Assembly: GCA_001803235.1 (NCBI GenBank)
Contig: MHBL01000443.1
Coordinates: 1-64,000 of the forward strand
DNA from: Lentisphaerae bacterium RIFOXYA12_64_32
GTDB lineage: Bacteria; Verrucomicrobiota; Lentisphaeria; Oligosphaerales; YB12-FULL-65-16
DNA: 64,000 nucleotides
Reading direction: 5' to 3'
The notes under the pieces were generated by a model. It did no database searches. It worked only from the letters and a program-made list of their open reading frames with translations, and was not told the DNA's origin. Below, in pieces: positions 3,288-42,511 of this stretch (within the stretch, counting starts at the first letter, position 1; each line of letters starts with the position of its first letter). Position numbers and translations under genes: made by a program.

Positions 3288-6095
3288 ATGGTCGGAAGCA
3301 AGTGTCTGGCTGGTAGCCTGATGTGGACGGGCGCCCTTCTGGCGTTGTGCGGGACGGGCTGTGCCAGGACCCGCGCGCCGGTGACGGTGACCTGTGCGCT
3401 TCCGGACGGCGTCCGGGTACTGGCGGAGTGCCAGGACATCCGCGCCGCCCAGATGAAACTCCGCGAGTTGAAGAGCCAGGGGAAACTCGCGGGCCCCGTC
3501 GAGGTCGTGCTACGCCGCGGCACCTATTCCATCTCGGAGCCCCTGCGCTTCACGCCGGAAGACTCCGGCACCGAGCAGTCGCCTATCACCTACCGCGCGG
3601 CGATACCGGGGGCGGTGACCATCAGCGGCGGCGTGCGAATCGAAGGATGGCGCCCGGAGAGTAACGGCGTATGGAGTGCCGATGTCCCCGAGGTGCGCGA
3701 AGGGAAGCTCTACTTCCGCCAGATGTTCGTCGACGGTCGCCGCGCGGTCCGGGCACGCAGCCCGAATCAGGGCTTCTTCTATGCCACCGGCCTGATCACA
3801 AAGCCCGACTACGCGAACGGGAAGGCTGACGGGTTCTACTACGCGGGGGAGGACATGACTCAAAACATTGCCGCGTGCCCGGACATGCAGCTCGTGATCT
3901 ATGAGAGCTGGTTGTCGAGCCAGCATCGCGTCAAGGAGTTCCGACCGGAGACGAAAACGGTCATCACGGAGCGTCCGATGGCATGGTCGAGCACGCGGTC
4001 GCGTTACCTCGTGGAGAACGCGCCGGCCTGCCTGGACGCACCGGGCGAATGGTATCTCGACCGCCAGACGGGAGTTGTCCGCTACATCCCCCTGCCGGGA
4101 GAGGACATGCGCAAGGCAACGGTCATTGTGCCTGTGACGCCATCGCTGCTGCAGTTCAAGGGTGATCCGGAGCGGGGCGCCTACGTCGAGCACCTTCGCT
4201 TCTCTGGCATCACCTTCACCCACGCCGACTGGACCCCGCAGGGGCGCTCGCTCACCGGCAGTCAGGCACGGTGCCCCACCGGGTTCGCGACCCCTGACAT
4301 TGCTTTGGAATCCGGCGCCGTCGCCGCGATCGGTCTCCGGCACACGTCCATCGAGGGCTGTGAGGTCACCCAGGTCGGTGCACACGCGGTCGTCCTGATG
4401 CAGGGCTGCGCCGACAACGTGGTGCGGAAGTGCCACATGCATGACTTGGGCGGCGGCGGGGTATACCTGTTCTGGGAGACCGCCGACCCTCGCATATGGA
4501 AGCCGCGCGGCGAGTTCGACCACATCGAGCGCAACGTGATCGACAACAATTACATCCATGACATGACCCACGTGTGGAACGGCGCCGTCGGGGTGCTGAC
4601 CGGGCCGTGCGCCGCCAACAACCGGATCACGCACAACGAGGTGAGCTATGGCGATTACTCGGGAATGTCGATCGGCTGGGGGTGGAGCGCCGACCAGAAG
4701 TATGGATTCTACCAGGATGGCAACGTGGTGGAGTACAACCACATACATCACGTGATGAACTACCTGCTCGACGACGGCGCCGCCATCTACCTTCTCGGCT
4801 GGCAGAAGGATACGCGCATCTGCTACAACTGGATCCACGATGTGCGCTCCTACTCGGGTGGATACGCCAATGGCCTCTACCCTGACTCTGGCACGTCGGG
4901 GGTCCTGTTCGAGGGCAACGTGATTCACGACGTCCTTTGGGGTTTCGCGGGCAACGGCGGACATGAGTGCATCGTTCGCGACAATATCTTCGCCTTCTGT
5001 CAGCAGACCGGCATCAGGACTGGCGAGCATTGGTGGGACGTGCAGGTGAAGCTCAACCCCAACCCCATCGTGTTCGAGCGCAACATCGTGTACGATGACG
5101 GCGGCAATTCCGCGCTGGTGCGGACGGGCAATGCGACCAACGCTCAGGTGATGAGCAAGAACCTCTATTGGCCGGGCACCACCCGCGCGGGCGAGAAACT
5201 CTTCTCCGGCGGCAAGGAGCAACCGCTCGGGACGTTCGCGGACTGGCAGGCGAAAGGCTACGACGCCGGATCGGTCATGGCCGATCCCTTGTTCATGGAC
5301 GCCGCCGACCGCGATCTGCGCCTGCGCCCGGACTCGCCCGCCCTGAAGCTGGGATTCAAGCCGACGGACCTCTCGAAAGTCGGGCTCTACGGTGACCACG
5401 ATTGGACCTCGCTGCCAAGCAGGATGAAGCACACACCCATCGTGTCCGTGTCGGGTCCTCCTCCGAGAGGGTTCGAGTGGACCTACGATGACGAGGCGGC
5501 CGGGGCCGCCCCTGTCCATTCCGGCGAGCTTGCGCCGGGACCGACCGAGCTGAACCACAGGATCGTGGTGACAGACACGGACGCGGCATCCGGGAAGCAC
5601 AGCCTGATGCTCGTGGAGGGGAAGAACGAGGAACGCAACTTCTTCCCGTTCCTGCACTACCCAATCGGAGCGGATGCCGGCCCCATACGGGCATCCCTTC
5701 GTCTCAAGATGCCCTCGGCCACTCCGTCCGCCATGTACCTGGAGTTCCGCGACTACGCGAACGCGGGCGTCAAGTACTTCCAGACTGGGCCGCATCTCGA
5801 GATCGATGCGCAGGGTGTGCTGACCGCCACGCCGAACGCCGGCGTGAAACTTAAACTCCCCCGCGGCGCCTGGGTGCTCCTGGACATGGCGTTCAACATG
5901 GGCAAGGGCGCGGCCAAGACGTTCGACCTGACCGTCACGGTCCCGGGACAGCCGCCGCAGGTGTTCCGGGATGTCCCCTACACGGACACGGCATTCCTGC
6001 AGGCCGGCGAGATCTACATCGTCAGCACCGGTCCGGATGGCGGCGCGTTCCTGATCGACGACGTCCGCGTTACGACAGCCCATGGTGACGAGTAG
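3288..6095 (+). CDS. Secreted right-handed beta-helix protein, GH141-like
   Basis: The start at 3288 is chosen because AAGGAGG lies 6 bp upstream; it is followed by a hydrophobic signal with a lipobox-like LALCGTGC, so the protein is probably a lipoprotein. Residues ~50-150 (RRGTYSISEPLRFTPEDSG, then ISGGVRIEGW) match the N-terminal part of GH141 glycosidases such as Bacteroides BT_1002-type fucosidases. A long parallel beta-helix follows, with repeated N-x-I-x-H turns such as NNYIHDMTHVWNG. The last ~220 residues form a separate beta-sandwich-like domain ending FLIDDVRVTT. The role is probably cleavage of a fucose- or xylose-containing glycan outside the cytoplasm; the exact substrate is not visible. 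Confidence 0.75.
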   Translation: MVGSKCLAGSLMWTGALLALCGTGCARTRAPVTVTCALPDGVRVLAECQDIRAAQMKLRELKSQGKLAGPVEVVLRRGTYSISEPLRFTPEDSGTEQSPITYRAAIPGAVTISGGVRIEGWRPESNGVWSADVPEVREGKLYFRQMFVDGRRAVRARSPNQGFFYATGLITKPDYANGKADGFYYAGEDMTQNIAACPDMQLVIYESWLSSQHRVKEFRPETKTVITERPMAWSSTRSRYLVENAPACLDAPGEWYLDRQTGVVRYIPLPGEDMRKATVIVPVTPSLLQFKGDPERGAYVEHLRFSGITFTHADWTPQGRSLTGSQARCPTGFATPDIALESGAVAAIGLRHTSIEGCEVTQVGAHAVVLMQGCADNVVRKCHMHDLGGGGVYLFWETADPRIWKPRGEFDHIERNVIDNNYIHDMTHVWNGAVGVLTGPCAANNRITHNEVSYGDYSGMSIGWGWSADQKYGFYQDGNVVEYNHIHHVMNYLLDDGAAIYLLGWQKDTRICYNWIHDVRSYSGGYANGLYPDSGTSGVLFEGNVIHDVLWGFAGNGGHECIVRDNIFAFCQQTGIRTGEHWWDVQVKLNPNPIVFERNIVYDDGGNSALVRTGNATNAQVMSKNLYWPGTTRAGEKLFSGGKEQPLGTFADWQAKGYDAGSVMADPLFMDAADRDLRLRPDSPALKLGFKPTDLSKVGLYGDHDWTSLPSRMKHTPIVSVSGPPPRGFEWTYDDEAAGAAPVHSGELAPGPTELNHRIVVTDTDAASGKHSLMLVEGKNEERNFFPFLHYPIGADAGPIRASLRLKMPSATPSAMYLEFRDYANAGVKYFQTGPHLEIDAQGVLTATPNAGVKLKLPRGAWVLLDMAFNMGKGAAKTFDLTVTVPGQPPQVFRDVPYTDTAFLQAGEIYIVSTGPDGGAFLIDDVRVTTAHGDE

Positions 6096-7560: not shown

Positions 7561-7800
7561 CGGGATCGCGCCGATGATACCGAAATCGAACGGACTGGCG
7601 CCGAGGGCCCGGGCAAACCCAACCTGTTGCGGCCCCCCGGTCAGGCACATGTACACCATGGATAGGCACCCAGCCACGATGACTCGGGTCATAATCCGTT
7701 GCATGGCGGGCGGAACCGGGGCATCCGGCGACGGCTGGCCGACGGGCGCGTGGCTCCGGGACGGTCCGGGAAGATCGGATGTGTTCTCCGCTGAATCCAT
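7561..7800 (-). pseudogene. MFS transporter remnant (N-terminus only)
   Basis: From the ATG at 7800 the translation gives a polar head and then MVYMCLTGGPQQVGFARALG followed by ASPFDFGIIGAIP. This pattern matches the first two membrane segments of major-facilitator transporters common in Lentisphaerae. After residue ~80 the resemblance stops and the frame runs into unrelated, proline-rich sequence. No further transporter segments are found in the other minus-strand frames. It is read as a relic of a sugar transporter. Confidence 0.5.
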
Positions 7801-7912
7801 GAGCGATAGTGCGGTTCGGTCCCGAACCGCTGTGTTGATGTGTCCGGCCGGCAGAATTGCCGGCTGATCTGACCCTACTGTGCGTTCGGAGCAATGCAAG
7901 GCGAGCGCAATG

Positions 7913-8067
7913 CAGGGCTGTTTCAAGATCTGGCACCACGTCTCGGAAGGCCACGCCTCCGCGCACACCCGGTAGGGGCGGCCTGTCCTCAGGCCGCCCC
8001 CCCCGGAGTGGGGACACGCCGGGGGTACTCGCTGCACGCGACGGTCACGAATCTTGAAACAGCCCTG
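7913..8067. mobile_element. 155-bp MITE with 17-bp terminal inverted repeats and 9-bp target duplication
   Basis: The ends are CAGGGCTGTTTCAAGAT (7913-7929) and its exact complement (8051-8067). They are flanked by the 9-bp direct repeat AGCGCAATG at 7904-7912 and 8068-8076. The interior carries a strong palindrome, GGGGCGGCCTGTCCTCAGGC and its continuation, and no coding capacity. A second, left-truncated copy is at 48111-48240. A non-autonomous element mobilised by an unseen transposase is the best reading. Confidence 0.85.
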
Positions 8068-8226
8068 AGCGCAATGATCGGGCGGGCAAGTTCCGTCCGC
8101 GCCCGGGGGCACTGGGGGGCACTGGGGGACAGGCACGCTGGCGGTGTGTTCTGCGGGGCACTTGCAGAGGCAGGCTTTGGCCTATACCGGTATGGGTGTT
8201 GTTGCCTAGGCCCGGACCCTGAGGCC

Positions 8227-8255
8227 GCGACAGGCCGCGGTGCAACCTGTATAAT
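8227..8255 (+). promoter_or_regulatory. Promoter of the first beta-helix paralogue
   Basis: GCGACA (8227-8232), a 17-bp spacer and a perfect TATAAT (8250-8255) lie about 50 bp upstream of the ATG at 8306. The -10 is directly preceded by TG. Confidence 0.6.
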
Positions 8256-8305
8256 CTGGGTAACCAGAGCCGTTGTCACGCAACAGGGATTCATCGGAGA
8301 ACCCC

Positions 8306-10705
8306 ATGATTGGTACACTCTCCCCTTGCGGAACCGTGTCGCTGCTGCCCACGTTGACGGCAGCTCTCTGGTGCGCGGCCAGTGCGGGGCAGGCGCCAAC
8401 TCCTGCGGCTTCCCCGGGCGGCGAGCGCGGGTGGCTGAACGCGCGAGACTGCGGCGCGTCCGGGTCCGAGTTCGGGACGACGGCCGCGGCGACGGCAGGA
8501 TCGAAGGAGATCGTGGTCGCCGAGGTGGGCGATTTCCGTGCCGGTCAGGGCGTGATGCTGTCCGAGTGCAATCCCCGATACGTGAAAAACGTCGTCTGGG
8601 GGCCGCGGCAGATTATCACGTGGGAGAAACCCCTCGAGAACAGGGCGGAGATCCGGGGCTACGACGGCACACAGGGCGACTGGGTGGTCTTGTTCCTGGA
8701 TGTCCCCAAGGGCTCGAAGACCTTCCGCTGGTCCGAGGACTTCGCCCGTTCCTGGAAACCGACCGTTGCCATCACCGGCGACTGGCAACCGCTGCGTGAC
8801 GGGCTCGAGATCCGCTTCAACCCGCACGACTGGGAGCAAGGCTACACGGTCGTCTTTGCCGCCCGGGGCCAGTTGGAGACGGTCATCGAAAAGCTAGAGG
8901 GCAACGTCGTCACGTTGCGCGACGCGCCGGCGCGAACGGTCAAGGCCGCGATGCTGCGGCACTGCGACGACTCGGGATTGCAGGCGGTGATCGACCGTGC
9001 CATCCGGGAGAAGAAGAACGTCCACATCCCCGTTGGCCGGTACCGATTGTCCCATGGGCTGAGCGTGAAGGACGCGGCGGGCATCACCATCGAGGGGGCG
9101 AATGCCACCGAGACGATCCTGGACATCAGCGAGGGTGAGGGCACGTGCATCACTCTCACCGCCGGGACGGAGGTCACGCTGCGCAACCTGACCATGACCG
9201 GTCATTCCGGGTTCAAGGAGCGTGACCAGTGCGGCGCCATTGCGATGCTCGGGGCGGGCTACTTCTGGGGATTTGCGGCCAAGTGCTGTAACGCGGTATC
9301 CATCAAAGACACGGAGCGGGTGCTGATTGAAAACTGTCACGGCACCCGCATGTCCATGGAGTGTTTCTACTCTCAGGGCCGGTCCCGGGTCGGCGGCAAG
9401 CCTGAGCCCGCGCAGTACACCAAGGCGATCACGTACCTGCGCTGTTCGGTGGTCGACAACGCGCGCAACGCCTTCAACAACAATGACATGGCCGAGAACA
9501 CAAGTGTGCTCAACTGTCGCATCGTCGACGCTGGCGGCTGCACGTGGGAGGGCGCGTCGCGCTTCGTGAAGTTCTGCGGTAACTACGTGCGCAACTCCGG
9601 AACCGTGGCCATGGGGAACGTGCGCAGCCGCGCGGCGCACTACGAGGAACTGGGGACGGGCCAACACATTGTGACCGACAACGTGTTCGAGAGCGGGGTC
9701 TGCTACGGCGGCTGCGCCATCCGCGCCGCGTCCTGTGCGCAACAGGTGATCGTCGCCCGCAATCTGTTCGTGAACTTCGGCTCCTCGGCGGTCGAGATGC
9801 TGAGTTCGACCGGCCCGACGGACCTGCCCGCCGGCATCACCAGCGTCACCGGCAACATCTTCGACATGACTTCGCTGGCGGAGAACCCGATCCCGCGCAC
9901 CGCGGTCTTGGTGAGCACGTCGGACACCATCGTCAGCGACAACCAGATCTATGTCCGCGGCGCTACGGCGGCGGATGTCACCGGCATCCGCGTTCAGGAG
10001 CCGGCTCTCAATGTGTCCGTGCACGACAACCTGGTCCGCAACTGCGGCCAGGGCATTGTCACGGCGCGCTGCTCGTCGCGCGTTGCCGAGGTCGTCGATT
10101 CGACCACGTTTGTCTCCAGGCCCGGCCAGGTGCCGTTCGAACGGCGGCAGTCGCATCGCTACCGCGGGTGGAACGTGGCGTGGCTCGGGAGCGGCACGCC
10201 GGCCGAGGTGTCCGTTGTGGCGGACTTTGACCCGGAGACTTGCCGGTTCAAGCTCGTGGAAGCCCGGGCCATGCACGTCGGCGATGTCTTCGAGGTCTTC
10301 CCGCCCTACGGCGCCAACTGGCTGATCCACAGCAACACGGTTTCGGGTTGTGCCAAACCGGTCGTACTGGACTCGTACGGCAGCGAGACGTCCATACTCC
10401 GCGACAACCTGATTTCGCGCGGCGACGCCGGCGGCGTCAGCGAGGCGGTCAAGGTTTCGGGACGATTCACGCTGAGCGGGAATCGCATCTGCGGGTTCGA
10501 CGAGCAGGGCTCGGCGGCACTGGCCATCGCCGCAGACGCGACCGGGCATGCGCCGCGCAATCTCTACCTCCGTAACACGTTCGAGCGTTGCGCCGTCGCC
10601 GTGAAGGAAGCACGGGAGGGATTGTGGAAGGAAAGCGTGGCCGAGGGCAACCTTTTCCTCGACTGCGGTACGGCCCCGGCCGCGAGTGGCCGACCGGCCC
10701 CGTAG
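8306..10705 (+). CDS. Secreted beta-helix protein, paralogue 1 of 3
   Basis: The ATG at 8306 follows CGGAGA and opens a signal peptide ending near SAGQA. The ~200-residue N-terminal domain (GWLNARDCGASGS, then a DWQPLRDGLEIRFN strand) is shared with the proteins at 10755 and 15654. A right-handed parallel beta-helix follows (IPVGRYRLSHGLSVKDAAG, IENCHGTRMSMECF, IVSDNQIYVRG), the fold of pectate-lyase-like glycan enzymes. It carries no additional domain, unlike its two relatives. The product is probably secreted or on the cell surface and acts on a polysaccharide, but catalytic residues and substrate are not recognisable. It is the first of the triplicated set. Confidence 0.72.
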   Translation: MIGTLSPCGTVSLLPTLTAALWCAASAGQAPTPAASPGGERGWLNARDCGASGSEFGTTAAATAGSKEIVVAEVGDFRAGQGVMLSECNPRYVKNVVWGPRQIITWEKPLENRAEIRGYDGTQGDWVVLFLDVPKGSKTFRWSEDFARSWKPTVAITGDWQPLRDGLEIRFNPHDWEQGYTVVFAARGQLETVIEKLEGNVVTLRDAPARTVKAAMLRHCDDSGLQAVIDRAIREKKNVHIPVGRYRLSHGLSVKDAAGITIEGANATETILDISEGEGTCITLTAGTEVTLRNLTMTGHSGFKERDQCGAIAMLGAGYFWGFAAKCCNAVSIKDTERVLIENCHGTRMSMECFYSQGRSRVGGKPEPAQYTKAITYLRCSVVDNARNAFNNNDMAENTSVLNCRIVDAGGCTWEGASRFVKFCGNYVRNSGTVAMGNVRSRAAHYEELGTGQHIVTDNVFESGVCYGGCAIRAASCAQQVIVARNLFVNFGSSAVEMLSSTGPTDLPAGITSVTGNIFDMTSLAENPIPRTAVLVSTSDTIVSDNQIYVRGATAADVTGIRVQEPALNVSVHDNLVRNCGQGIVTARCSSRVAEVVDSTTFVSRPGQVPFERRQSHRYRGWNVAWLGSGTPAEVSVVADFDPETCRFKLVEARAMHVGDVFEVFPPYGANWLIHSNTVSGCAKPVVLDSYGSETSILRDNLISRGDAGGVSEAVKVSGRFTLSGNRICGFDEQGSAALAIAADATGHAPRNLYLRNTFERCAVAVKEAREGLWKESVAEGNLFLDCGTAPAASGRPAP

Positions 10706-31664: not shown

Positions 31665-34328
31665 GTGCCTTTGCCGAGGGGAACACGAGGTGATGCGCGG
31701 CGGGAGTCGTCGGACGCGCCGCGACACGAGGACTGCTGGGCCAAGACCACGCCCGGCGGAAGGCCGGGCATCTCCGTCTCGCAGCACTGCCGTACAGCGG
31801 GCACGATTGCCAGGCTGCTGGTCGGATCGTTGCCCGGATCGCTTCGCGCTGCCATGCGGGCGGACGCCGCAATCTCCCTGGCAGCCCTGCATGACGTGGG
31901 GAAAGTCTGCCCAGGGTTCCAAGCCAAGTGCGCGGAGTGGCTGAGCCGGCAGGGGCTCGAGGACACGGCAGTCCACTGGCACGGCGTCGAACCCGACCAC
32001 GCCAAGGTCAGCCAGAAAACGCTGCAGGGCATTATCGGCGACCACTCACCGTTGCGCTATTGGGCTGCCATTGTCGGCGCGCACCACGGCCGGCTGAAAG
32101 GGGACCGGCTTCTGCCCTTGCGCGACGGCGGCGATGCATGGGGCGCACAGCGGCGGCGCCTTGTGGAGGAAATGCTCCGCGACTTCGGACCGCTCCCCGA
32201 CGAACCGCCGCCCACGCCGGACTGTGGGCCGCTGTGGTTCGTCGCCGGGCTTGTCGCGGTCGCCGATTGGCTCGCGTCCGACGAGCGCACCTTCCCACCG
32301 TCCAAAGACCTTGCGTCCGACGAGATTGCGACCAGGGTAACGGCCCAACTCGCTCGGCTCGGCTTTGCCGCGCCGCCGACGGTTCCGCCGGACCTCGCTT
32401 TCGCCGACCTGTTCCCGGACACCCCGACCCCGAATTCCCTGCAGCAGGCAATGGCGCGGGCCGCGATACGTCCGGGTGTGTACGTCGTCGAAGGCCCAAT
32501 GGGCTGCGGCAAGACCGAGGCGGCACTCACGGCCGCGTACCGCCTTCTCAGCACCGGCCAGGCCACCGGACTGTACTTCGCGTTGCCGACGCGGACGACG
32601 AGCAACCGCATTCACCGGCGCGTCAGCGCATTCCTCGACCGGTTGGGAGGTCATGGGCGTGCCGTGCGTCTTGTCCACGGCACGTCCTGGTTGCTCGACG
32701 ACGCACCGGCGGTCGACGGTATCGAGCACGGCGAAGCGAGCCAGGGGGAGGCACGCTACGCCGGCCGCGATTGGTTCGCGTCGCCGCGTCGCGCGCTCCT
32801 CGCGCCGTTCGGCGTCGGCACGGTGGACCAGGCCTTACTCGGGGTCGTAGCCGCCAAGCACTTCTTCGTGCGCCAGTTCGGCTTGGCCGGCAAAGTCGTC
32901 GTGCTGGACGAGATCCATTCCTACGACCTCTACACCGGGACGCTGATCGACCAACTGGTCCGGCGTCTGCGCGAACTCCAGGCTACGGTCATCGTCCTCT
33001 CCGCCACGCTCACGGCCCGGCGTCGCCGCGAACTGCTCGGGCTCGCGGACTCCGCAACCGTCGAGCCGCCCTGCTCCGAATACCCGCTCTTGTCCGCCGT
33101 ACGCGATGGGGACGGCACGGCCGGTCCGTTTCAGATCGCACCGGCAGCGCCTCCGCCCAAGCGCATCAATGTCAGCATGCGCCCCGAGTCCGAACTCGCG
33201 GATGCCTGTCTCGCCCGCGCCGAACGTGGGGCGTGTGTGCTCTGGATCCGGAACACGGTCGACGACGCCCAGGCAACCTACCGGACTCTGTGTGCGCTGA
33301 ACCGGTGCGACGGGCCCGAACTCGGACTGTTGCACGCGCGGTTCCCGCAGTTCCGCCGCGACCAACTCGAAGACGACTGGATGGAGCGGCTCGGGCGTGA
33401 CGGCGCCCGACGTCCGGCACGCGGTTGCGTTCTGGTGTCGACCCAGGTCGCCGAACAGAGTGTGGACATCGATGCCGACCTGCTCATTACGGATGTGGCG
33501 CCCACCGACATGCTGCTCCAACGCCTTGGCCGGCTCTGGCGGCACGAACGAACGCGCCCTGCTGAGTGCGCAGCGCCCGAGATCTGGATCTCGGCGCCCG
33601 CGTTGGCCGCGTGCGAACTCCGCACGGCTGGGATCACGGAGATCAAGGCTGCGTTCGGCAAGAGCGCCAAGGTCTACGCGCCCTACGTCCTCGTGCGCAC
33701 GTTCGACCTGTGGCGCGAGCGTACGGTGGTGACTTTGCCGGGAGATATTCGGCCTCTGCTCGAAGCCACCTATGCCGAGCTGCCGGACGAGCCGGTGGCT
33801 TGGTGCGAACTGCGTGAGGCCATGGAAGAGCGCAAGAAGAAGCTGGCGAGTGCGGCCATCAATGCCACCGCCATGTGGGCTAACCCGGCACTCGACGACG
33901 AGGAAGGCGTCCAGACCCGCTGGGGCGACCGCCCCAGCGGGATGGTCCTGCCCCTGCCGCGGCTGCTCGCGTGGGACGGCAAGAATGGGGCGCGGTTCGA
34001 ACTGCTCAGCGGCGAGACGTGCGACGTCCGTACCGGCAAGTTCTCGTTTGCCGCCGCCAAGGCCATTCATCGCAACCTGGTCCGTGTGCCGCTCTGGACC
34101 GTCAAGCCGTTCCTCGACGCCGCTCCGGCCTGGCTGCGCGAGTACGTGACGGAGCTGGCGGTGCCCGTCAAGGTCCAGGACGGCAAGCTGCTGACCATCC
34201 CGGGTGGCGAAGATACGGGGCTGGAGTACCGACCCAACGTTGGCGTGGTGATCCGTCCCAAACCGCGTTTCGATCGTCCGGCGGGACGCTTGCGCGAAGA
34301 GGAGGACGACGATGAATCTTACGACTGA
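31665..34328 (+). CDS. cas3: Cas3, HD nuclease-helicase of the type I-E system
   Basis: The N-terminal HD nuclease domain carries the H76-D77 pair in SLAALHDVGKVCPGFQAK. The SF2 helicase follows with Walker A EGPMGCGKTEAAL, the DEAH-type box VVLDEIHSYD, motif III LSATLTARRR and motif VI STQVAEQSVDIDADLLITD. Cas3 is recruited by Cascade to nick, unwind and degrade invader DNA. The start is GTG at 31665; no ATG lies in frame near the HD domain, so the exact start is uncertain by a few codons. The 3' end overlaps cse1 by 17 bp, placing it at the head of the operon. Confidence 0.95.
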   Translation: MPLPRGTRGDARRESSDAPRHEDCWAKTTPGGRPGISVSQHCRTAGTIARLLVGSLPGSLRAAMRADAAISLAALHDVGKVCPGFQAKCAEWLSRQGLEDTAVHWHGVEPDHAKVSQKTLQGIIGDHSPLRYWAAIVGAHHGRLKGDRLLPLRDGGDAWGAQRRRLVEEMLRDFGPLPDEPPPTPDCGPLWFVAGLVAVADWLASDERTFPPSKDLASDEIATRVTAQLARLGFAAPPTVPPDLAFADLFPDTPTPNSLQQAMARAAIRPGVYVVEGPMGCGKTEAALTAAYRLLSTGQATGLYFALPTRTTSNRIHRRVSAFLDRLGGHGRAVRLVHGTSWLLDDAPAVDGIEHGEASQGEARYAGRDWFASPRRALLAPFGVGTVDQALLGVVAAKHFFVRQFGLAGKVVVLDEIHSYDLYTGTLIDQLVRRLRELQATVIVLSATLTARRRRELLGLADSATVEPPCSEYPLLSAVRDGDGTAGPFQIAPAAPPPKRINVSMRPESELADACLARAERGACVLWIRNTVDDAQATYRTLCALNRCDGPELGLLHARFPQFRRDQLEDDWMERLGRDGARRPARGCVLVSTQVAEQSVDIDADLLITDVAPTDMLLQRLGRLWRHERTRPAECAAPEIWISAPALAACELRTAGITEIKAAFGKSAKVYAPYVLVRTFDLWRERTVVTLPGDIRPLLEATYAELPDEPVAWCELREAMEERKKKLASAAINATAMWANPALDDEEGVQTRWGDRPSGMVLPLPRLLAWDGKNGARFELLSGETCDVRTGKFSFAAAKAIHRNLVRVPLWTVKPFLDAAPAWLREYVTELAVPVKVQDGKLLTIPGGEDTGLEYRPNVGVVIRPKPRFDRPAGRLREEEDDDESYD

Positions 34329-35871
34329 TCCCTGGATTCCCATCATCTGGGAGAGCGGCGCGCCTGACAAAGTGAGCCTGCGCGACGCGTTCCTGCGCGG
34401 CCACGAGATCCGCGACCTCGCCGTGCGCCCGCACGAACGCATCGCCCTGATGCGCCTGCTCATCTGCGTGGCCCAGGCCGCACTCGACGGCCCGAAAGAC
34501 CACGCCGAATGGCAAACCTGCCACGAACGACTACCCCAAGTCGCCGCCGACTACCTCGGTCAATGGCGCCATGCCTTCGAACTGTTCGGTGACGGACAGA
34601 GGTTCCTGCAGGTGACGGACGTCAGATCCATCAGCGCAAGGGGTGACGACCAAGGGGGCGATGTAGCCAAGCTTGACCTCGATTTGGCGGCAGGCAATAT
34701 GCCGACCCTGTTCGACAACGCGGCGGGTGGGACCCGAGCGTTCGGGCCGGATCGCATCGCCCTGACCTTGCTCACGTTTCAGAGTTTTTCGCCGGGTGGC
34801 CTGATCGGCAACGTGGCGTGGGCGGGCAACGCCATGGGGCGCAGCAGCAATCACGCCCCTTGCATCGTCAAGTCGATGGTTCACACCTATCGCAAGGGCG
34901 GAGACCTGCAGGAGACTGTGCATGGCAACCTTCTCCACAAGGAACAACTGGCGCGGGCCGGCGTTGTTTGGGGATTGCCCGTGTGGGTGCGTCCCCCCGT
35001 GAGCATCGACGATGCGAGCGCCGTTCAGAATGCCTGTGCAACGTACCTTGGCCGCCTCGTGCCGCTGGCGCGCGCCGTGTGTCTGGAATCCGGCGGGACG
35101 CGCATGGTGATGGGCAATGCCCTGACTTACAGTCCCGACTGGCGCGAACCGGCCGCCACGGTCGTGGTTCGTGACCGCGACGGCGTTCCAGAACGCGTCC
35201 TCGTTAGCGGGTCCCTTGAGAAGAGCATTTGGCGTGAGCTTCACTCCATTGCCACGCTCTCGACGTTCGCCAAGGACGGTCTGGGCGGGCCGTGGACCCT
35301 GGCGAACGGAGACGCGGTGGAGCGGGGATGTGACATCTGGGTTGGGGCGTTGGCGGCGAACAAGTCCAAGCTCCTTGACACTATCGAGTCGGTGTTCCAC
35401 CTCCCGGCTCCGATCTTCGCGGATGTTGGTCAACGGCTCTACCAAAACGGGATTCAGCAAGCCGAACAAGGGGCATCGCGTCTTCGCAGGGCGGTCTCCG
35501 CCTATCACCGCGAGTACAAAGACGACTTGGACCGGTTCGAGTTTCGGAAGCGCGGAAACCTCGTCAAGCAGAAGGCCACCACGCACTATTGGACCGCCGT
35601 GGAGCAGCACGTCTCCGACCTTTTGGTCATCGTCGAGAACCCCGCCCTGCTCGGGCCGGACCTGGCGCATCCGACCTGGGGCACGACCGAGTGGGGGCAG
35701 GGCATCTTTCGTGCCGTGCGCGCCGCCTATGACCTGGCCTGCCCGCACCAGACCCCGCGCCAGATGAAGGCCCACGCGCTGGGTTTGCGCGCACTGTTTG
35801 CGAAGTCCGCAAGTCACGCTGAGGCCGATGCCAACACTGACACCAAGGCCGATACCGATACCGACCAATAA
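34312..35871 (+). CDS. cse1: Cse1/Cas8e, large subunit of Cascade
   Basis: The 519-residue protein begins MNLTTDPWIPIIWESGAPDK, the characteristic Cse1 opening, with SLRDAF and the RIALMRLLICVAQAALDGP helix after it. Cse1 recognises the PAM and recruits Cas3. The segment LFDNAAGG around residue ~135-140 corresponds to the family's PAM-contact loop region. The C-terminus ends with a short Asp/Thr-rich tail (residues ~503-519). The gene overlaps cas3 and is 17 bp from cse2. Confidence 0.93.
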   Translation: MNLTTDPWIPIIWESGAPDKVSLRDAFLRGHEIRDLAVRPHERIALMRLLICVAQAALDGPKDHAEWQTCHERLPQVAADYLGQWRHAFELFGDGQRFLQVTDVRSISARGDDQGGDVAKLDLDLAAGNMPTLFDNAAGGTRAFGPDRIALTLLTFQSFSPGGLIGNVAWAGNAMGRSSNHAPCIVKSMVHTYRKGGDLQETVHGNLLHKEQLARAGVVWGLPVWVRPPVSIDDASAVQNACATYLGRLVPLARAVCLESGGTRMVMGNALTYSPDWREPAATVVVRDRDGVPERVLVSGSLEKSIWRELHSIATLSTFAKDGLGGPWTLANGDAVERGCDIWVGALAANKSKLLDTIESVFHLPAPIFADVGQRLYQNGIQQAEQGASRLRRAVSAYHREYKDDLDRFEFRKRGNLVKQKATTHYWTAVEQHVSDLLVIVENPALLGPDLAHPTWGTTEWGQGIFRAVRAAYDLACPHQTPRQMKAHALGLRALFAKSASHAEADANTDTKADTDTDQ

Positions 35872-35888: not shown

Positions 35889-36461
35889 ATGTCTCAAGCC
35901 CGCCCGCCCCTTGAGAATGCCACGCGCTTCATCGCCTTCCTGCAGCAGCGCTATAGGGGCGACCGTGGCGCGCTGGCCAACCTGCGCGCCGCGCTGAGCG
36001 AGACGCGCCGGTATCGCGCCTGGCCGTTGCTCGGCGGCTTCCACGGCGCCATCGGCAATCCCGCCTTCGAAACCGTGGCGGCGCTGTGGGCCGCCGACGC
36101 GGACAGCCACGCCTCGGACTCGGCGGATCTGGGCGACGCGTTGAGAAAGCTCAGCGGCGAGCACAACTCCTTTGACGGTCGCTTTCGCCGGTTGCTGACC
36201 TGCGACCGCGACGAGATCGCTGAACGTGTCGCGCCCGTGGTGCGTGCCGCACAGGCCAAGGGTGTGCCGGTCAACTACGCGCGGCTGCTCTCGGACCTGC
36301 TCTGCTGGAGCGACGACGCGAAGCTGCGCTGGGCCAAGTCGTTCTGGGGCGCGCCGGAGGACGAAGCGGCGCTTGCCGCCGGCCTGCTCGACAGCGACGG
36401 CGCGGCGCCGACGTGCGAGTCCGCGCCTCAGGGCGCGGTCGCCGCGGAGGTCGCATCATGA
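35889..36461 (+). CDS. cse2: Cse2, small subunit of Cascade
   Basis: The 190-residue, mostly helical protein has the Cse2 core: RRYRAWPLLGGFHGAIGNPA, then KLSGEHNSFDGRFRRLLTCD and NYARLLSDLLCWSDDAKLRW. Cse2 forms a dimer along the Cascade backbone and stabilises the R-loop. The ATG follows GGAGGG at 35877-35882. The stop overlaps the cas6e start (ATGA), indicating translational coupling. Confidence 0.9.
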   Translation: MSQARPPLENATRFIAFLQQRYRGDRGALANLRAALSETRRYRAWPLLGGFHGAIGNPAFETVAALWAADADSHASDSADLGDALRKLSGEHNSFDGRFRRLLTCDRDEIAERVAPVVRAAQAKGVPVNYARLLSDLLCWSDDAKLRWAKSFWGAPEDEAALAAGLLDSDGAAPTCESAPQGAVAAEVAS

Positions 36462-37087
36462 GCTACCTCACCCAAGCCCTCATCGACTTCGAGACCGCGG
36501 CGCGGCTGAAGCTCCACGACGGCTACGCTTGGCACCAACTCGTCTGGAGCGCCTTTCCCCAGCGCGACGGCGCGCCCCGCGACTTCCTCACGCGTCTCGA
36601 CCGGCGTGAGCGAGACCGCGACTTCCGCTTGCTTATCCTCTCTCCACGCCCGCCCCAGTGTCCCGACGCGTGGCCGACGGACCGGCCCGACGCCTGGCAG
36701 ACACGCGAGATCGTCCCGGCGTTCTTCGCGCATCGCCGGTACCGGTTCCAACTCCGCGCCAATCCGACCAGACGCGACAGCGCTACCCGCAAGCGCCTAC
36801 CCCTGCGCACGGACGACGAACTGCGCGCATGGCTCGACCGCAAGGCCGCCTCCGGCGGCTTCGCGGTCGATGCGGAGACGCTGCGGATCATGCAGGAGGG
36901 GCGCGAGTGGTTTCGTATCGAGAAACGCGGCACGTCCGGGTTCCACCACGCGGTCGAGTTCGACGGCATGCTGACAGTGACCGATCGTGCGGAATTCGCG
37001 GTGGCCCTGGCCCGCGGTATAGGTTCGGCCAAGGCGTTCGGGTTCGGTCTGCTCGCTCTTGCGCCGGTAGCGGACGAAACGCAGTGA
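36458..37087 (+). CDS. cas6e: Cas6e, crRNA-processing endoribonuclease
   Basis: The 209-residue protein begins MSYLTQALIDFETAARLKLH and ends with RGIGSAKAFGFGLLALAP, the glycine-rich loop of Cas6e. The candidate catalytic His is in YAWHQLVW near residue 27. Cas6e cuts pre-crRNA 3' of the repeat stem, here CCCCACGCGCGTGGGG. Its place directly after cse2 differs from the canonical cas7-cas5-cas6e order. The start overlaps the cse2 stop by 4 bp. Confidence 0.9.
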   Translation: MSYLTQALIDFETAARLKLHDGYAWHQLVWSAFPQRDGAPRDFLTRLDRRERDRDFRLLILSPRPPQCPDAWPTDRPDAWQTREIVPAFFAHRRYRFQLRANPTRRDSATRKRLPLRTDDELRAWLDRKAASGGFAVDAETLRIMQEGREWFRIEKRGTSGFHHAVEFDGMLTVTDRAEFAVALARGIGSAKAFGFGLLALAPVADETQ

Positions 37088-37146
37088 AACGTCCGGCACC
37101 CGGACGCGCAACAAGTTTCACCGTCACATCGCTCGGAGTCGCGTGT

Positions 37147-38055
37147 ATGGATATCGCCAACGAACGGAAACTCGCAGCCCGAGCCAAGGCGCTCGGCGAG
37201 AGTGCCAACGCGGATACCTTCCCCGAACTGGCTGAGATGACCCGGTCCGCGTCGCCGCTGGTCCGGCGGCTGGCGGCCTCCGCGCTGGGCAAACTCGCGG
37301 GGATCGTGGACTCCGCAGCGTCAGTCGACTTGCTGCGTCCACTGTTGGGAGATGAACACCCACAGGTACGCCAGTACGCGGCCAAGGCGCTCGGGGCGTT
37401 CGGCGTGGCGGCGGAGAACGCGCTGCCCGACCTGCGCGACATGTACCGGAACCCGACCGAGAAAGACTACGTGAAGCGCAGCGTGGTGACGGCCGGCAAA
37501 ACGATCCGCGAAGCGTTGCGCATCGCCGAGCAGCAGGCGGTCCACGTCTGCCGCAAGTGTGGCCAATCGGTGGCCCCGGACGAATACGCGCGGTCGCAGA
37601 AGGCCTTCCAGCGCACCTACTGCGACGTGTGCTTCGACACGGTGTTCCTCGATCGCCGCAACTGGGAGACGCAGGTCGAACTGAACAAAACGGTGCAGGC
37701 AGCGAACGGCACCGTAGTGCAGTCCGAGGGCGAACGCATCATTGCCGAGGAACTGGCGGCGTTGGGGCTGATGTTCCGCTACGACAATCGGTTCCGCATC
37801 ATCAAGGGTTACGCCATCCGCCCCGACTTCTACCTGCCCGAGTTCGACCTGTACATTGAGTATTGGGGTATGGAAGAGAACCTCGACTACCGGATCGGCA
37901 TGCTCGAGAAGAAGAAGAAGCTTTACCAGCAGGCGGGCAAGCGCCTGGTGTCGCTGCATGCCGACGAGAAGCCGCGCCTGCGCGAAGCCTTGCGCGAGAA
38001 GCTCGCGCGGTACATGCACGTGCCGACCGGTGCGGGGCAGGGGACTGGGCCGTAG
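37147..38055 (+). CDS. HEAT-repeat/zinc-ribbon/PD-(D/E)XK nuclease protein inside the cas operon
   Basis: This 302-residue protein is not a known Cas family. Residues ~20-125 are HEAT-like helical repeats (LVRRLAASALGKLAG, then QVRQYAAKALGAFGVAAENA). A zinc ribbon follows with C135-x2-C138 and C159-x2-C162. Residues ~190-295 look like a PD-(D/E)XK nuclease: SEGERIIAEELAALGL (E194), RPDFYLPEFDLYIEYWG (D227 and E238) and a lysine-rich helix, as in nuclease domains attached to SF1 helicases. It lies between cas6e and cas7e with gaps of 59 and 66 bp, whereas several other junctions in the operon overlap. An alternative GTG start at 37084 overlaps the cas6e stop. A role in interference or spacer capture is inference. 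Confidence 0.8.
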   Translation: MDIANERKLAARAKALGESANADTFPELAEMTRSASPLVRRLAASALGKLAGIVDSAASVDLLRPLLGDEHPQVRQYAAKALGAFGVAAENALPDLRDMYRNPTEKDYVKRSVVTAGKTIREALRIAEQQAVHVCRKCGQSVAPDEYARSQKAFQRTYCDVCFDTVFLDRRNWETQVELNKTVQAANGTVVQSEGERIIAEELAALGLMFRYDNRFRIIKGYAIRPDFYLPEFDLYIEYWGMEENLDYRIGMLEKKKKLYQQAGKRLVSLHADEKPRLREALREKLARYMHVPTGAGQGTGP

Positions 38056-38121: not shown

Positions 38122-39264
38122 ATGAAACTGATCGAACTCCACATCCTCCAATCGTTCCCCGTGTCGTGTCTGAACCGCGACGACGTCGGTGCGCCAAAGA
38201 CCGCCATCTTCGGCGGCTGCACCCGGGCGCGCATTTCGAGCCAGTGCCTCAAGCGCGCCGTGCGCGAGATGGCGCACGACCTGGCCCCCGCGCATTTCGC
38301 GGCCAACCGCAGCCGCTTGATCATCCGGCCGCTGGCCGACGCGATGAAGAATCGGGGCGTGGAGGAAGGCAGGGCGCTGGAGGCGGCCAAGGCGATCGGT
38401 GAGTACCTGGCCACGTACGATGCAGAGAAGGAAAAGGACGGTGCGCTCCAAGTCAAGACGCTGATGTTCCTGTCACCCGCGGAGATCGAGGAGATAGCGG
38501 CCAAGGTGGCTGCCGGGCTCGCTTCCGCGCCGCCGGACGCGCCGCCGGCTGCCGAAGAGGGCAAGGGACGGAAGGGAAAGAAGAAAGATGGCGGAACTGC
38601 CTTGGCCGACATGGTCAAGAAGGCATGCAAGGAGGCGACGAAAGCCGTCCAACTCAAGGACGCTGCCGACGTCGCCATCTTTGGCCGCATGGTCGCCAGC
38701 GACCACACACTCACGGTCGAGGGGGCCGGCATGTTCAGTCACGCCCTCTCGACGCACAAGGCGGAGAATGACGTGGACTTCTTCTCCGCGGTCGATGACC
38801 TCAAGCCGAAGGACGCCGATGATGCCGGCGCCGGCATGACCGGCACGCTCGAGTTCACCTCCGCCTGCTACTACCGCTACGCGGCGCTGAACCTGGATCT
38901 GCTCGCGGACAAGGACCACCTGGCCGCGCTCTCGCCTGACGAGCGCAAGGCCGTTGTCAACGCGTTTGTCCGCGCCACGCTGCTCGCAGTGCCCGGCGCG
39001 CGCCGGAACTCGATGAACGCCAACACCCTGCCCGTCTACGTGCTGGGCATCGTTAAGAACCACGGGCAGCCGATCCAGTTGGTCAATGCCTTCGAGAAAC
39101 CCGTGTGGTCGAAGGACGGGCTTGCGGTCAAGGCCACGGAGGCCATGAAAGCCCATCACGTGGCAATGAAGAAGACCTGGGATGTCGCGACGGCCGAGGA
39201 GATCGCCATTCCCGATGTGAGTCTGAACGAGTTCTGCACGAGGATCGTTGCCCATGTCGACTGA
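38122..39264 (+). CDS. cas7e: Cas7e (Cse4/CasC), Cascade backbone subunit
   Basis: The 380-residue RAMP protein begins MKLIELHILQSFPVSCLNRD and has CTRARISSQCLKRAVREM, HTLTVEGAGMFSHALSTHK and FVRATLLAVPGARRNSMNAN, all Cas7e signatures. Six copies wrap the crRNA in known type I-E complexes. A ~25-residue insert rich in Ala, Lys and Gly lies around residue 140-160. AAAGGACG precedes the ATG. Its end overlaps cas5e by 11 bp. Confidence 0.93.
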   Translation: MKLIELHILQSFPVSCLNRDDVGAPKTAIFGGCTRARISSQCLKRAVREMAHDLAPAHFAANRSRLIIRPLADAMKNRGVEEGRALEAAKAIGEYLATYDAEKEKDGALQVKTLMFLSPAEIEEIAAKVAAGLASAPPDAPPAAEEGKGRKGKKKDGGTALADMVKKACKEATKAVQLKDAADVAIFGRMVASDHTLTVEGAGMFSHALSTHKAENDVDFFSAVDDLKPKDADDAGAGMTGTLEFTSACYYRYAALNLDLLADKDHLAALSPDERKAVVNAFVRATLLAVPGARRNSMNANTLPVYVLGIVKNHGQPIQLVNAFEKPVWSKDGLAVKATEAMKAHHVAMKKTWDVATAEEIAIPDVSLNEFCTRIVAHVD

Positions 39265-39958
39265 ACACGTCTACCTCGCACTGATGCTTGACGCGCCGCT
39301 GATGAGCTTCGGGCATTCGAGCCGGTTCCAGCGCCGCACCACCGCGCTGCATCCGACGCGCAGCGGTATTCTCGGCATGATCTGTGCCGCGCTCGGCGCC
39401 GCCAAAGGCTCAAGCGTCGAGAGCGAGTGGTTGGCGCGCCTCGACGGCGCGCGCCTGACCGTCCTGGCCATTCCGCGCCGGCCGGACGGGGCCCGTGAAC
39501 CGCTGCCGATCCGGCGGCTTGATGACTATCACACCGTCGAGGGCACGCGCAATGCGGAGAACAAGATCAAGAAGGACGCGGTGCTCAGTCACCGCCAATA
39601 CCTCCTCGATGCGCGGTTCGGCGCGATCATGGAAGGGCCGCGCGCCGTACTCGAACCGGTTGCCGACGCACTGCGGAATCCGCACTGGGGCATTTGGTTC
39701 GGACGCAAGTGCTGCATCCCCGCCGCACCGGTGTTTCGCAAGCTGGCGGCGACCTTCGACGAGGCCATGGCAACCCTCGACTTGGCCAGCCGCGACCTGG
39801 CGGAGTTTGCCGTCGTGACCGAGGCGCCGAGCTTTGACGAAGGCACGGATACGCTCATGGACGCGCCCGTCTCGTTCGCGACCCGCGAATTCAAACCGCG
39901 CCGGATCTGCCAGACGCCGCCCGTCGTGCCGCCCGGTGAACGGCGCGTCACGGCGTAG
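39254..39958 (+). CDS. cas5e: Cas5e (CasD), crRNA 5'-handle-binding subunit
   Basis: The 234-residue RAMP protein starts in MSTEHVYLALMLDAPLMSFG and shows FQRRTTALHPTRSGILGMIC, IKKDAVLSHRQYLLDARFGA and a ...EFKPRRI ending, typical of Cas5e. It caps the crRNA 5' handle next to Cse1. The start lies within the end of cas7e, so the two are coupled. A 43-bp gap leads to cas1. Confidence 0.92.
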   Translation: MSTEHVYLALMLDAPLMSFGHSSRFQRRTTALHPTRSGILGMICAALGAAKGSSVESEWLARLDGARLTVLAIPRRPDGAREPLPIRRLDDYHTVEGTRNAENKIKKDAVLSHRQYLLDARFGAIMEGPRAVLEPVADALRNPHWGIWFGRKCCIPAAPVFRKLAATFDEAMATLDLASRDLAEFAVVTEAPSFDEGTDTLMDAPVSFATREFKPRRICQTPPVVPPGERRVTA

Positions 39959-40001: not shown

Positions 40002-40835
40002 ATGCCCGTCTTCGAGAAACCGCCATTGGAGACGTTGACACCGGTTTCCGAGCGCTGGACACCGTTGTACCTCGAGCACGGCCGGCTCGAGGTCGACGAT
40101 TCAAGCGTGAAATGGATCGGCGCCGACCGCACCGTGCTGCGTATCCCCGTGGCAACCGTCAGCGCGCTCATGCTCGGCCCGGGCACGACGGTGACGCATG
40201 CCGCCATCCGTGCCTGCGCCGTGTCGAACACGCCCGTCTGCTGGATCGGCGAGGAAGGCATGCATTTCTACGCCTTTGGCGCCACGCCGACACACGACAA
40301 CGAGCGCGCCCGCCGTCACGCCGAGGCGTACGCGAACCCCAAACGTCGTGCGGAGATCGCACGGCGCATGTTCGGAAAGCGTTTTCCCGATTGCGACGTG
40401 AGCCAGACGCACATCGAGGACCTGCGGCTCCTCGAAGGGAGGCGTGTTCGAATTCTTTACCAGCGCCTGGGTGCGGAGTACGGCGTGACCTGGATGGGCC
40501 GTAACTACAACCCCAACAACTGGGACGTGGCCGACGAGATCAACCGTGCGGTTTCCGCGGCCAACGCCGCCCTCTACTCGCTTTGCACCGCCGTGGTCTG
40601 CGCACTGGGATATCTGCCGGAACTTGGCTTCATCCACGCGGCCGCGGCACGCTCCTTTGTGCTCGACGTGGCCGATATGTACAAACCCGAGACCAGCTTG
40701 CCGGCCGCGTTCCATGCCGTGAGCCTGAACCCGAAGAACGCCGGCGCCGACACGATGCGGTTGCTGAAACTGCGCATCGAGGAGACGAAACTCCTGCAGC
40801 GGATGCCTCGCGACATCGAGGAGTTGTTCGCATGA
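40002..40835 (+). CDS. cas1: Cas1, spacer-integration nuclease (type I-E)
   Basis: The 277-residue Cas1e has the expected catalytic residues: E145 in LRLLEGRRVRILYQ, H212 in LGFIHAAAARSFVLDVADMY and an Asp at 222 or 225. The start at 40002 is set by AAGGAGGCG upstream. Cas1 with Cas2 integrates prespacers at the leader-proximal repeat. The stop overlaps the cas2 start (ATGA). Confidence 0.96.
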   Translation: MPVFEKPPLETLTPVSERWTPLYLEHGRLEVDDSSVKWIGADRTVLRIPVATVSALMLGPGTTVTHAAIRACAVSNTPVCWIGEEGMHFYAFGATPTHDNERARRHAEAYANPKRRAEIARRMFGKRFPDCDVSQTHIEDLRLLEGRRVRILYQRLGAEYGVTWMGRNYNPNNWDVADEINRAVSAANAALYSLCTAVVCALGYLPELGFIHAAAARSFVLDVADMYKPETSLPAAFHAVSLNPKNAGADTMRLLKLRIEETKLLQRMPRDIEELFA

Positions 40836-41179
40836 CCGTGCTCGTCGCCAATGATACGCCGCCCGCCATCCGCGGCCTGCTCAAACGCTGGTTCGTCGAA
40901 CCCAAACCGAATGTCTTCGTTGGGACCGTGAACCGGCGCACCCGCGACAAGACCCTCGAGTACATTCGCCGTAACGCACCGGATATGGGCTTGCTCATGA
41001 TCGCCACCAGCAAGAACTGCCAGGGCTTTGAAATGCAGAGCTGGGGCGAAACCGACCGGCGCATCGTTGAGTTCGAGGGCCTGCAGTTGATCGCCGAAAC
41101 CTGGGACGGGAGTGCGGAAGATCCCGCCGGGCAGGCCGATGGTGCGGATGCTGCCGACGAGGAGGATCCGCCATTCTGA
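40832..41179 (+). CDS. cas2: Cas2 (type I-E)
   Basis: The 115-residue protein begins MTVLVANDTPPAIRGLLKRW and has VFVGTVNRRTRDKTLEYI, the Cas2e (CasCD-like, TIGR01873-type) pattern. Its C-terminal ~20 residues are acidic (ADGADAADEED), which is longer than the minimal fold. It bridges two Cas1 dimers during integration. It ends 10 bp before the exonuclease gene and is not fused to it. Confidence 0.93.
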   Translation: MTVLVANDTPPAIRGLLKRWFVEPKPNVFVGTVNRRTRDKTLEYIRRNAPDMGLLMIATSKNCQGFEMQSWGETDRRIVEFEGLQLIAETWDGSAEDPAGQADGADAADEEDPPF

Positions 41180-41189
41180 GGACATTGCC

Positions 41190-41999
41190 GTGCTGACGCG
41201 TTCGTTCTGTCATTTCCGTGGCGTGAAGCGTGACGGTGAACGGCACCTGTGGCGCCATGGCATCCTTGGGTGGGACGACGTGGAGCGTGGCGTCCCGTCA
41301 GGCATCCTCTCACCCGCCAAGACCGCGAGCCTGCGGGAGCAGGTTGCGGTGACACGCCAGGCCCTGCTCGCGCGGGACGCCGGGCACTTCCTGACTCGCC
41401 TGCCCGTGGCCGAACGACCACGAGTCCTCGGCGACTTCGCGGCGGAGACCGGATATCTGGACATCGAGACCGATGGGCTGTACGAGGGCGCGCGAGTGAC
41501 CACCGTGGCTCTGTTTTCCCAAGACGGCGTGCGCGTCTTCGTGCGCGGGCAAAACCTCGACCGGCTGCCGGCCGCCATCGAGGGACTGCGGCTGCTGGTC
41601 ACGTACAACGGGAAGCGCTTCGATATGCCCATCCTGCAACGCGAGTTCGGCCAGGAGTTCGGCGTCCCACACCTGGACCTCTGCCCCGTCCTGCACGCCT
41701 GGGGCCACTACGGCGGACTGAAGGCCATCGAACGCCGGCTGGGTATTGCCGGCCGCACTACGGGGGGCCTCGACGGCAACGACGCCGTCCTGCTGTGGCA
41801 GCATTACGTGGAGCAGGGCGATGCTGAAGCATTGCGCCTGCTCCTGCGGTACAACGCATCCGATGTCCTGACGCTCGAACCGCTGGCCTGGAAGGCCTGG
41901 AGATGGGCCATGGACGGCTACCCCTTGCAGCTGCCCGTACCGCCGTCCCGGCTTTGCCCAAACCACCTCCAGACTCCTTGGGGAAGTCTGGCTCTTTGA
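41190..41999 (+). CDS. YprB/RNase_H_2-type DEDD exonuclease next to cas2
   Basis: The protein (269 residues from a GTG at 41190 preceded by GAGG) begins VLTRSFCHFRGVKRDGE with a helix-hairpin-helix-like region (HLWRHGILGWDDV). A ribonuclease-H-like exonuclease domain follows, with D91 and E93 in YLDIETDGL, D145 in YNGKRFDMPIL, and D225 in YNASDVLTLEPL, completing a DEDD set with the Y-x3-D arrangement. Such proteins exist outside CRISPR loci, but here the gene sits 10 bp after cas2 and 57 bp before the array. DnaQ-like DEDDh exonucleases trim prespacers in other type I-E systems, sometimes fused to Cas2. A matching role here is inferred. Confidence 0.8.
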   Translation: MLTRSFCHFRGVKRDGERHLWRHGILGWDDVERGVPSGILSPAKTASLREQVAVTRQALLARDAGHFLTRLPVAERPRVLGDFAAETGYLDIETDGLYEGARVTTVALFSQDGVRVFVRGQNLDRLPAAIEGLRLLVTYNGKRFDMPILQREFGQEFGVPHLDLCPVLHAWGHYGGLKAIERRLGIAGRTTGGLDGNDAVLLWQHYVEQGDAEALRLLLRYNASDVLTLEPLAWKAWRWAMDGYPLQLPVPPSRLCPNHLQTPWGSLAL

Positions 42000-42056: not shown

Positions 42057-42511
42057 CTCTTCCCCACGCGCGTGGGGATGGTCCGGCATTCCCGGCGCGC
42101 CGGCGGGAGAGCATGTACTCTTCCCCACGCGCGTGGGGATGGTCCTGTGGTGGAGCACCTCTCGCCGGGTGACCGCTACTCTTCCCCACGCGCGTGGGGA
42201 TGGTCCTCATCCACGCGAGCAGCGACTGGTTGCGGCGGTCTCTTCCCCACGCGCGTGGGGATGGTCCCGACACGCCGTTGCCACCGAGCCGCACGGCCCA
42301 CTCTTCCCCACGCGCGTGGGGATGGTCCCTACTGCGTCTGCAAGCGCGACAAGACCGGCAGCTCTTCCCCACGCGCGTGGGGATGGTCCGTACCCGAGCA
42401 GCGCGAAGTTATCGGCCGGGACCTCTTCCCCACGCGCGTGGGGATGGTCCAAACATGCACGCCCGGACGCCTGCGCCCACGCCCTCTTCCCCACGCGCGT
42501 GGGGATGGTCT
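42057..42511 (+). CRISPR. Type I-E CRISPR array, 8 repeats and 7 spacers
   Basis: The 28-bp repeat is CTCTTCCCCACGCGCGTGGG followed by GATGGTCC; it contains the perfect palindrome CCCCACGCGCGTGGGG. Repeats start at 42057, 42118, 42179, 42240, 42301, 42362, 42423 and 42484, a constant 61-bp period, so every spacer is 33 bp. All repeats are identical except the last, whose final base is T instead of C. That marks the distal end and agrees with a leader on the cas2 side. The 5' handle expected after Cas6e cleavage would be GATGGTCC. No spacer obviously matches another part of this window. Confidence 0.98.

Follow-up and report, generated by a model that had tools for sequence, protein, structure and literature searches.

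A gene met repeatedly in cas operons is usually interpreted as a CRISPR accessory. The gene examined here, X, belongs to a family with such recurrence, recorded in PADLOC as HEAT_CxxC_PDDEXK (PDLC01150). We presume that this model originates from the survey of CRISPR-linked genes by Shmakov et al. 2018; leaving that survey aside, our literature search found no description of the family. As the name of the model says, X shares its three-part layout, for which PADLOC gives no mechanism. PMC6083498 catalogues known homing endonuclease families, including PD-(D/E)XK and EDxHD. The EDxHD enzymes, with I-Bth0305I as the closest solved nuclease fold, resemble X in being single genes that are scattered, decaying, and inserted between other genes. 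X differs from them in adding HEAT repeats, a zinc ribbon, a helix lysine (K256), and a cognate hairpin, and in being chromosomal with no intron. To our knowledge, there are no free-standing homing endonucleases with HEAT repeats.

Three other systems share single traits with X. RAP/FASTK-type proteins have a similar layout of helical repeats and a Vsr-like domain, but they act in organellar RNA processing, whereas X retains an invariant acidic/lysine set. REP/RAYT units likewise pair an enzyme gene with its own adjoining palindromic repeats; however, the hairpins of X are not dispersed through genomes, and X is not an HUH transposase. Cas4 has in common with X the PD-(D/E)XK superfamily and a CRISPR neighborhood. 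It represents a different branch, and in X the cysteines precede the nuclease domain.

The window, which is the whole 64,000-nucleotide stretch of Lentisphaerae bacterium RIFOXYA12_64_32 that was analyzed (contig MHBL01000443.1), contains a complete type I-E locus. Its order is cas3, cas8e, cas11e, cas6e, X, cas7e, cas5e, cas1e, cas2e, an RNase_H_2-type exonuclease gene, and the CRISPR array. X lies between cas6e and cas7e on the plus strand and encodes 302 amino acids, just as the earlier note on this DNA had read it. The features are as follows.

31665 to 34328, plus strand: cas3 (type I-E), from profile matches
34312 to 35871, plus strand: cas8e (cse1), from profile matches
35889 to 36461, plus strand: cas11e (cse2), from profile matches
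36458 to 37087, plus strand: cas6e, from profile matches
37076 to 37119, plus strand: hairpin GAAAC-GCAGTGAA-ACGTCC..GGACGC-GCAACAA-GTTTC, the cognate element of X, 27 bp 5' of the ATG
37147 to 38055, plus strand: X, the gene under study (HEAT repeats, zinc ribbon, Vsr-like PD-(D/E)XK nuclease; PADLOC HEAT_CxxC_PDDEXK), 302 amino acids
37147 to 37536, plus strand: HEAT-repeat domain of X, residues 1 to 130 (Pfam HEAT_2/HEAT; AlphaFold helices, block pLDDT 91 to 99)
37549 to 37632, plus strand: zinc ribbon of X, C135/C138/C159/C162, four of four invariant in the homologue alignment
37705 to 38000, plus strand: nuclease domain of X, with invariant E196, D227, E238, and K256 from the alignment; top Foldseek match, homing endonuclease I-Bth0305I
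38122 to 39264, plus strand: cas7e, from profile matches
39254 to 39958, plus strand: cas5e, from profile matches
40002 to 40835, plus strand: cas1e (TIGR03638, E = 2e-91)
40832 to 41179, plus strand: cas2e, from profile matches
42057 to 42511, strand not assigned: CRISPR array of 8 repeats, period 61

The protein runs from HEAT repeats (Pfam HEAT_2, E = 2.7e-15) through four cysteines to the nuclease domain. The repeats and the zinc ribbon had both been recognized from the letters alone, and they hold up: C135, C138, C159, and C162 are invariant in 51 of 51 homologues. The nuclease-like C terminus was also read correctly as to fold, D227, and E238. The third residue proposed, E194, was not, as position 194 varies among D, E, K, and A across the aligned homologues; the invariant set is E196, D227, E238, and K256. 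X had further been called unclassified. It is instead a member of a recorded family, because PDLC01150 matches it over its full length (E = 1.2e-129, 430 bits; X residues 1 to 289 against profile positions 1 to 287 of 288). No Cas4 profile matched X in our profile searches.

The AlphaFold model of X has a mean pLDDT of 87 overall and of 82 across residues 131 to 302. A Foldseek search with the latter segment ranked the catalytic domain of I-Bth0305I (3r3p) first, with a probability of 1.00, a TM-score on the target of 0.65, and a modest E value (2e-3). The next matches were AbaSI/PvuRts1I, Bax1, and the endonuclease-like protein ngo0050; mitoribosomal structures, which we take to be of RAP type, were among the weak ones. 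A search of PDB sequences with the nuclease domain returned no match, and Pfam Vsr matched weakly in 9 of 39 family members. PHROG homing endonucleases 3339 and 9084 also matched X weakly, as did a phage resolvase family. Together with the 3r3p match, the two homing-endonuclease matches place the predicted nuclease fold of X in the homing-endonuclease class. We do not file X as an EDxHD member, because its invariant E196-D227-E238-K256 replaces the EDxHD signature, although it may work like a Vsr/EDxHD homing endonuclease.

X is accompanied by its own hairpin, which has an outer and an inner stem separated by an asymmetric internal loop (GCnGTRRA / GnAACAA). The copy in the window folds at −21.1 kcal/mol (z = −2.9), and in four of eight pairs both partners have changed, well in excess of slid controls. 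A covariance model (R1) trained with the window excluded still matched the window hairpin (26 bits), and across 13 genomes every strong match lay beside X, so we rejected the idea of a dispersed REP element. One hairpin match in the host genome (contig C55; 27 bits, slightly above the copy in the window) sits at the end of an open reading frame without X and was treated as chance. The hairpins lie 0 to 40 nt 5' of the X start codon, and hairpins also occur downstream of X in three loci (L071, L072, and L069; both sides). A second branch of X has a different palindrome, whose five exact matches across ten genomes each lie no more than approximately 140 bp upstream of X. R1 does not match approximately half of the copies in the main branch (I-B, I-G, and some I-C), where other palindromes are visible by eye.

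Most copies of X are not in cas operons. The family is present in 33 of 195 host-phylum genomes, at 41 loci by our own count: 12 inside cas operons and 29 solo. Even supposing that cas operons make up 1% of a genome, 12 of 41 is far more than random placement would give (P < 1e-14), and the five copies from the Desulfobacterota samples are without exception in I-C operons. Over all loci there are 23 cas-linked cases: 13 I-C (two of them, L015 and L076, a divergent variant), 2 I-B, 3 I-G (including L081 and a relic, L012, in which only the start of cas4/cas1 is left), and 5 I-E (including one decayed copy and one scar). All 23 are co-directional with the operon. In the tree of X, one branch holds most of the linked copies and two other places hold the rest, with solo copies interspersed; beyond close relatives, solo copies have no conserved neighbors. 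The host genome has four copies, full or broken, three of them outside cas loci (on C215, C319, and C56; L019, L020, and L021). The C56 copy is frameshifted and adjoins a gene for a BrxC-like ATPase. Apart from matches to the C-terminal domain, no homologues were found in phage, plasmid, or viral-contig collections. The survey of homologue neighborhoods proposed in the earlier note therefore gave a mixed answer: most copies lie outside cas loci, yet there is clear recurrence inside them, including the cas6e-X-cas7e placement in other genera (intact in L082, decayed in L065).

The I-E lineage of the window shows how X is lost. Four I-E loci (the window, L082, L065, and L116) have in common the exonuclease after cas2, and all four operons are intact. 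X is intact in the window and L082, with 74% identity between them, the highest of all genes in the operon. It is degraded in the other two: an internal deletion in L065 took half of the zinc ribbon together with the greater part of the nuclease, and in L116 only a scar of the first 15 and last ~10 codons is left. Because X decayed while these operons stayed whole, it was probably ancestral at the cas6e-cas7e site of this lineage and is dispensable. Another intact I-E copy (L068), from a different sub-branch, sits between cas8e and cas11e. Across the I-E genomes of the phylum sample, X is intact in 3 of 18 and degraded in 2 more; it is not a conserved component of type I-E Cascade. The supposed coincidence of X with a shuffled gene order did not survive comparison: the order cas11e-cas6e-cas7e occurs without any trace of X in 9 of the 13 I-E loci examined in the host phylum, the remaining four, all from one family, having the canonical order. 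We thus rejected X-linked reshuffling.

The RNase_H_2-type exonuclease gene itself (window positions 41112 to 41999) directly follows cas2e and is kept in all four of these loci. No cas4 was found in the operon of the window by profile searches, and the exonuclease is a candidate partner for spacer processing in this Cas4-less system.

In the other subtypes, X lies next to cas4: it adjoins that gene in 16 of the 17 linked loci having cas4 in view. Intact X is present in ~10% of the I-C loci of the host phylum. In I-C operons of that phylum without X, a different gene often occupies the space between cas7 and cas4, and one locus (L102) has both Bro-N and X at the junction. The other cargo comprises RHH with PIN, DUF2442 with DUF4160, Fic, ORF6N, and four-helix proteins of the 23S rRNA-IVP type (two of the three matches to the last being below the Pfam cut-off). 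The boundary between effector and adaptation genes in I-C operons proves to be a site where unrelated cargo settles. Seven loci (L127, L128, L131, L132, L134, L141, and L142) have such toxin-antitoxin-type, Fic, ORF6N, or four-helix IVP-like cargo between cas7c and cas4. In L127 (positions 4273 to 5058), one protein encoded at this junction, which X also uses, combines HEAT-like repeats with a four-helix IVP-like domain.

Several loci bear marks of insertion. In L105, the hairpin and X are preceded by a 39-bp copy (38 of 39 identical) of the beginning of an ABC-transporter gene, which itself lies intact downstream of X. A 124-bp copy of the cas4 start precedes X in L015, again with intact cas4 after it; the L015 and L012 breakpoints suggest the 5' end of cas4 as a putative cut region. 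X lies between 117-bp inverted repeats in L078. The solo copy in L072, with hairpins on both sides, shares 93% identity with a congener's I-C copy, and the first cas4 codons are possibly, if weakly, present there. Clear repeats are confined to few loci, and we found no donor and recipient that share identical ends. Presence and absence of X with decay at the same site, as would mark homing, was observed in the I-E lineage, at the manC site in one genus (g37), and at the polA site (G160 versus G035). Frameshifted or truncated copies occur in L021, L077, and L149. X is under strong purifying selection in solo and operonic settings alike (dN/dS 0.04 to 0.19), as would be expected equally of a homing gene that is spreading and of a useful gene. 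On base composition we rejected a recent foreign origin of X, whose GC3 matches that of the operon. Separately, ten repeats of the GCAAAGTCA type and direct repeats of 137 bp flank a solo X on both sides in L085 (~7750 to 9350).

We give an even chance to the reading that X is a mobile homing-type nuclease cassette that colonizes cas operons. X would then be a mobile and self-contained gene for a free-standing endonuclease of the homing type, in which the Vsr-like C-terminal domain is expected to cut DNA and the HEAT repeats and zinc ribbon may supply target binding. It would spread by homing, as a cassette with its own upstream hairpin, inserting between genes and breaking none, sometimes duplicating the 5' end of the gene that follows, and would later be lost through decay, presumably having no role in immunity. 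Cas operons, which often move between genomes, would be its favored home, most often just before cas4, and the I-E lineage would have acquired it once, in the cas6e-cas7e gap. This corresponds to the passenger gene, one of three options raised earlier, and that option fits best: most copies are outside cas loci, other cargo occupies the I-C junction, and X decays while the I-E operon survives. Counting against the homing reading are the excess of cas-linked copies, the shared direction of all 23 of them with their operons, the small number of loci with clear repeats, the fruitless search for matching donor and recipient ends, the HEAT repeats, the modest Foldseek E value, and the absence of X, its C-terminal domain aside, from the phage, plasmid, and viral collections.

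Of the other two options, an accessory effector nuclease retains some merit. X would be co-transcribed with effector genes and brought to target or spacer DNA, where it would contribute cleavage or trim prespacers in type I CRISPR-Cas. Its recurrence in I-C, I-B, I-G, and I-E operons across several phyla, every time in the direction of the operon, argues for such a role, as do the intact active-site residues, the proximity to cas4-cas1-cas2, the top-ranking identity between the window and L082, and an X stop that overlaps the cas3 start in L074. Selection for a CRISPR role could also explain the excess of cas-linked copies in the host phylum and the five of five in Desulfobacterota. Moreover, X protein distances track those of cas3, cas8, cas5, and cas7 (rho 0.48 to 0.60). 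They are, however, uncorrelated with those of cas1 or cas4, by which we rejected co-travel with the adaptation module. Weighed against the rarity of intact X in I-C and I-E loci, its loss in two of the four loci of the window's lineage, and the many copies without nearby cas genes, the accessory role seems doubtful, and a passenger fits better. Substitution for Cas4 in prespacer end processing we regard as very improbable. The PD-(D/E)XK fold and the lack of cas4 in the I-E operon of the window speak for it. However, X coexists with Cas4 in I-C, I-B, and I-G loci and is therefore no substitute; it is not adjacent to cas1 in the window, and the I-E lineage keeps its exonuclease by cas2 with or without X. 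Type I-E functions without Cas4 in any case. X could also be a stand-alone anti-phage nuclease, its expression held down by its own 5' hairpin, for which cas operons are one shelter. The resemblance of its C terminus to the defense candidates PDC-S69 and PDC-S68, the fold similarity to AbaSI/PvuRts1I, the mRNA-leader-like position of the hairpin, and the copy beside the BrxC-like ATPase gene are consistent with this. Because solo copies, on inspection, do not as a rule lie in defense islands, and some hairpins are downstream of X, we think it quite unlikely.

The homing-cassette reading has a stronger form, in which X is specialized on CRISPR-Cas operons. Its target would be conserved cas coding sequence (the cas4 start in I-C, I-B, and I-G), and the hairpin, as a DNA end or as bound RNA, would be a working part of the nuclease. 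We hold this form to be unlikely; if true, it would mean that CRISPR operons carry their own dedicated selfish parasites. X is a cas-operon-recurrent gene that bears the marks of a mobile homing-type element and has its own hairpin. It thus provides a testable alternative to guilt-by-association, and may be a parasite of CRISPR operons.
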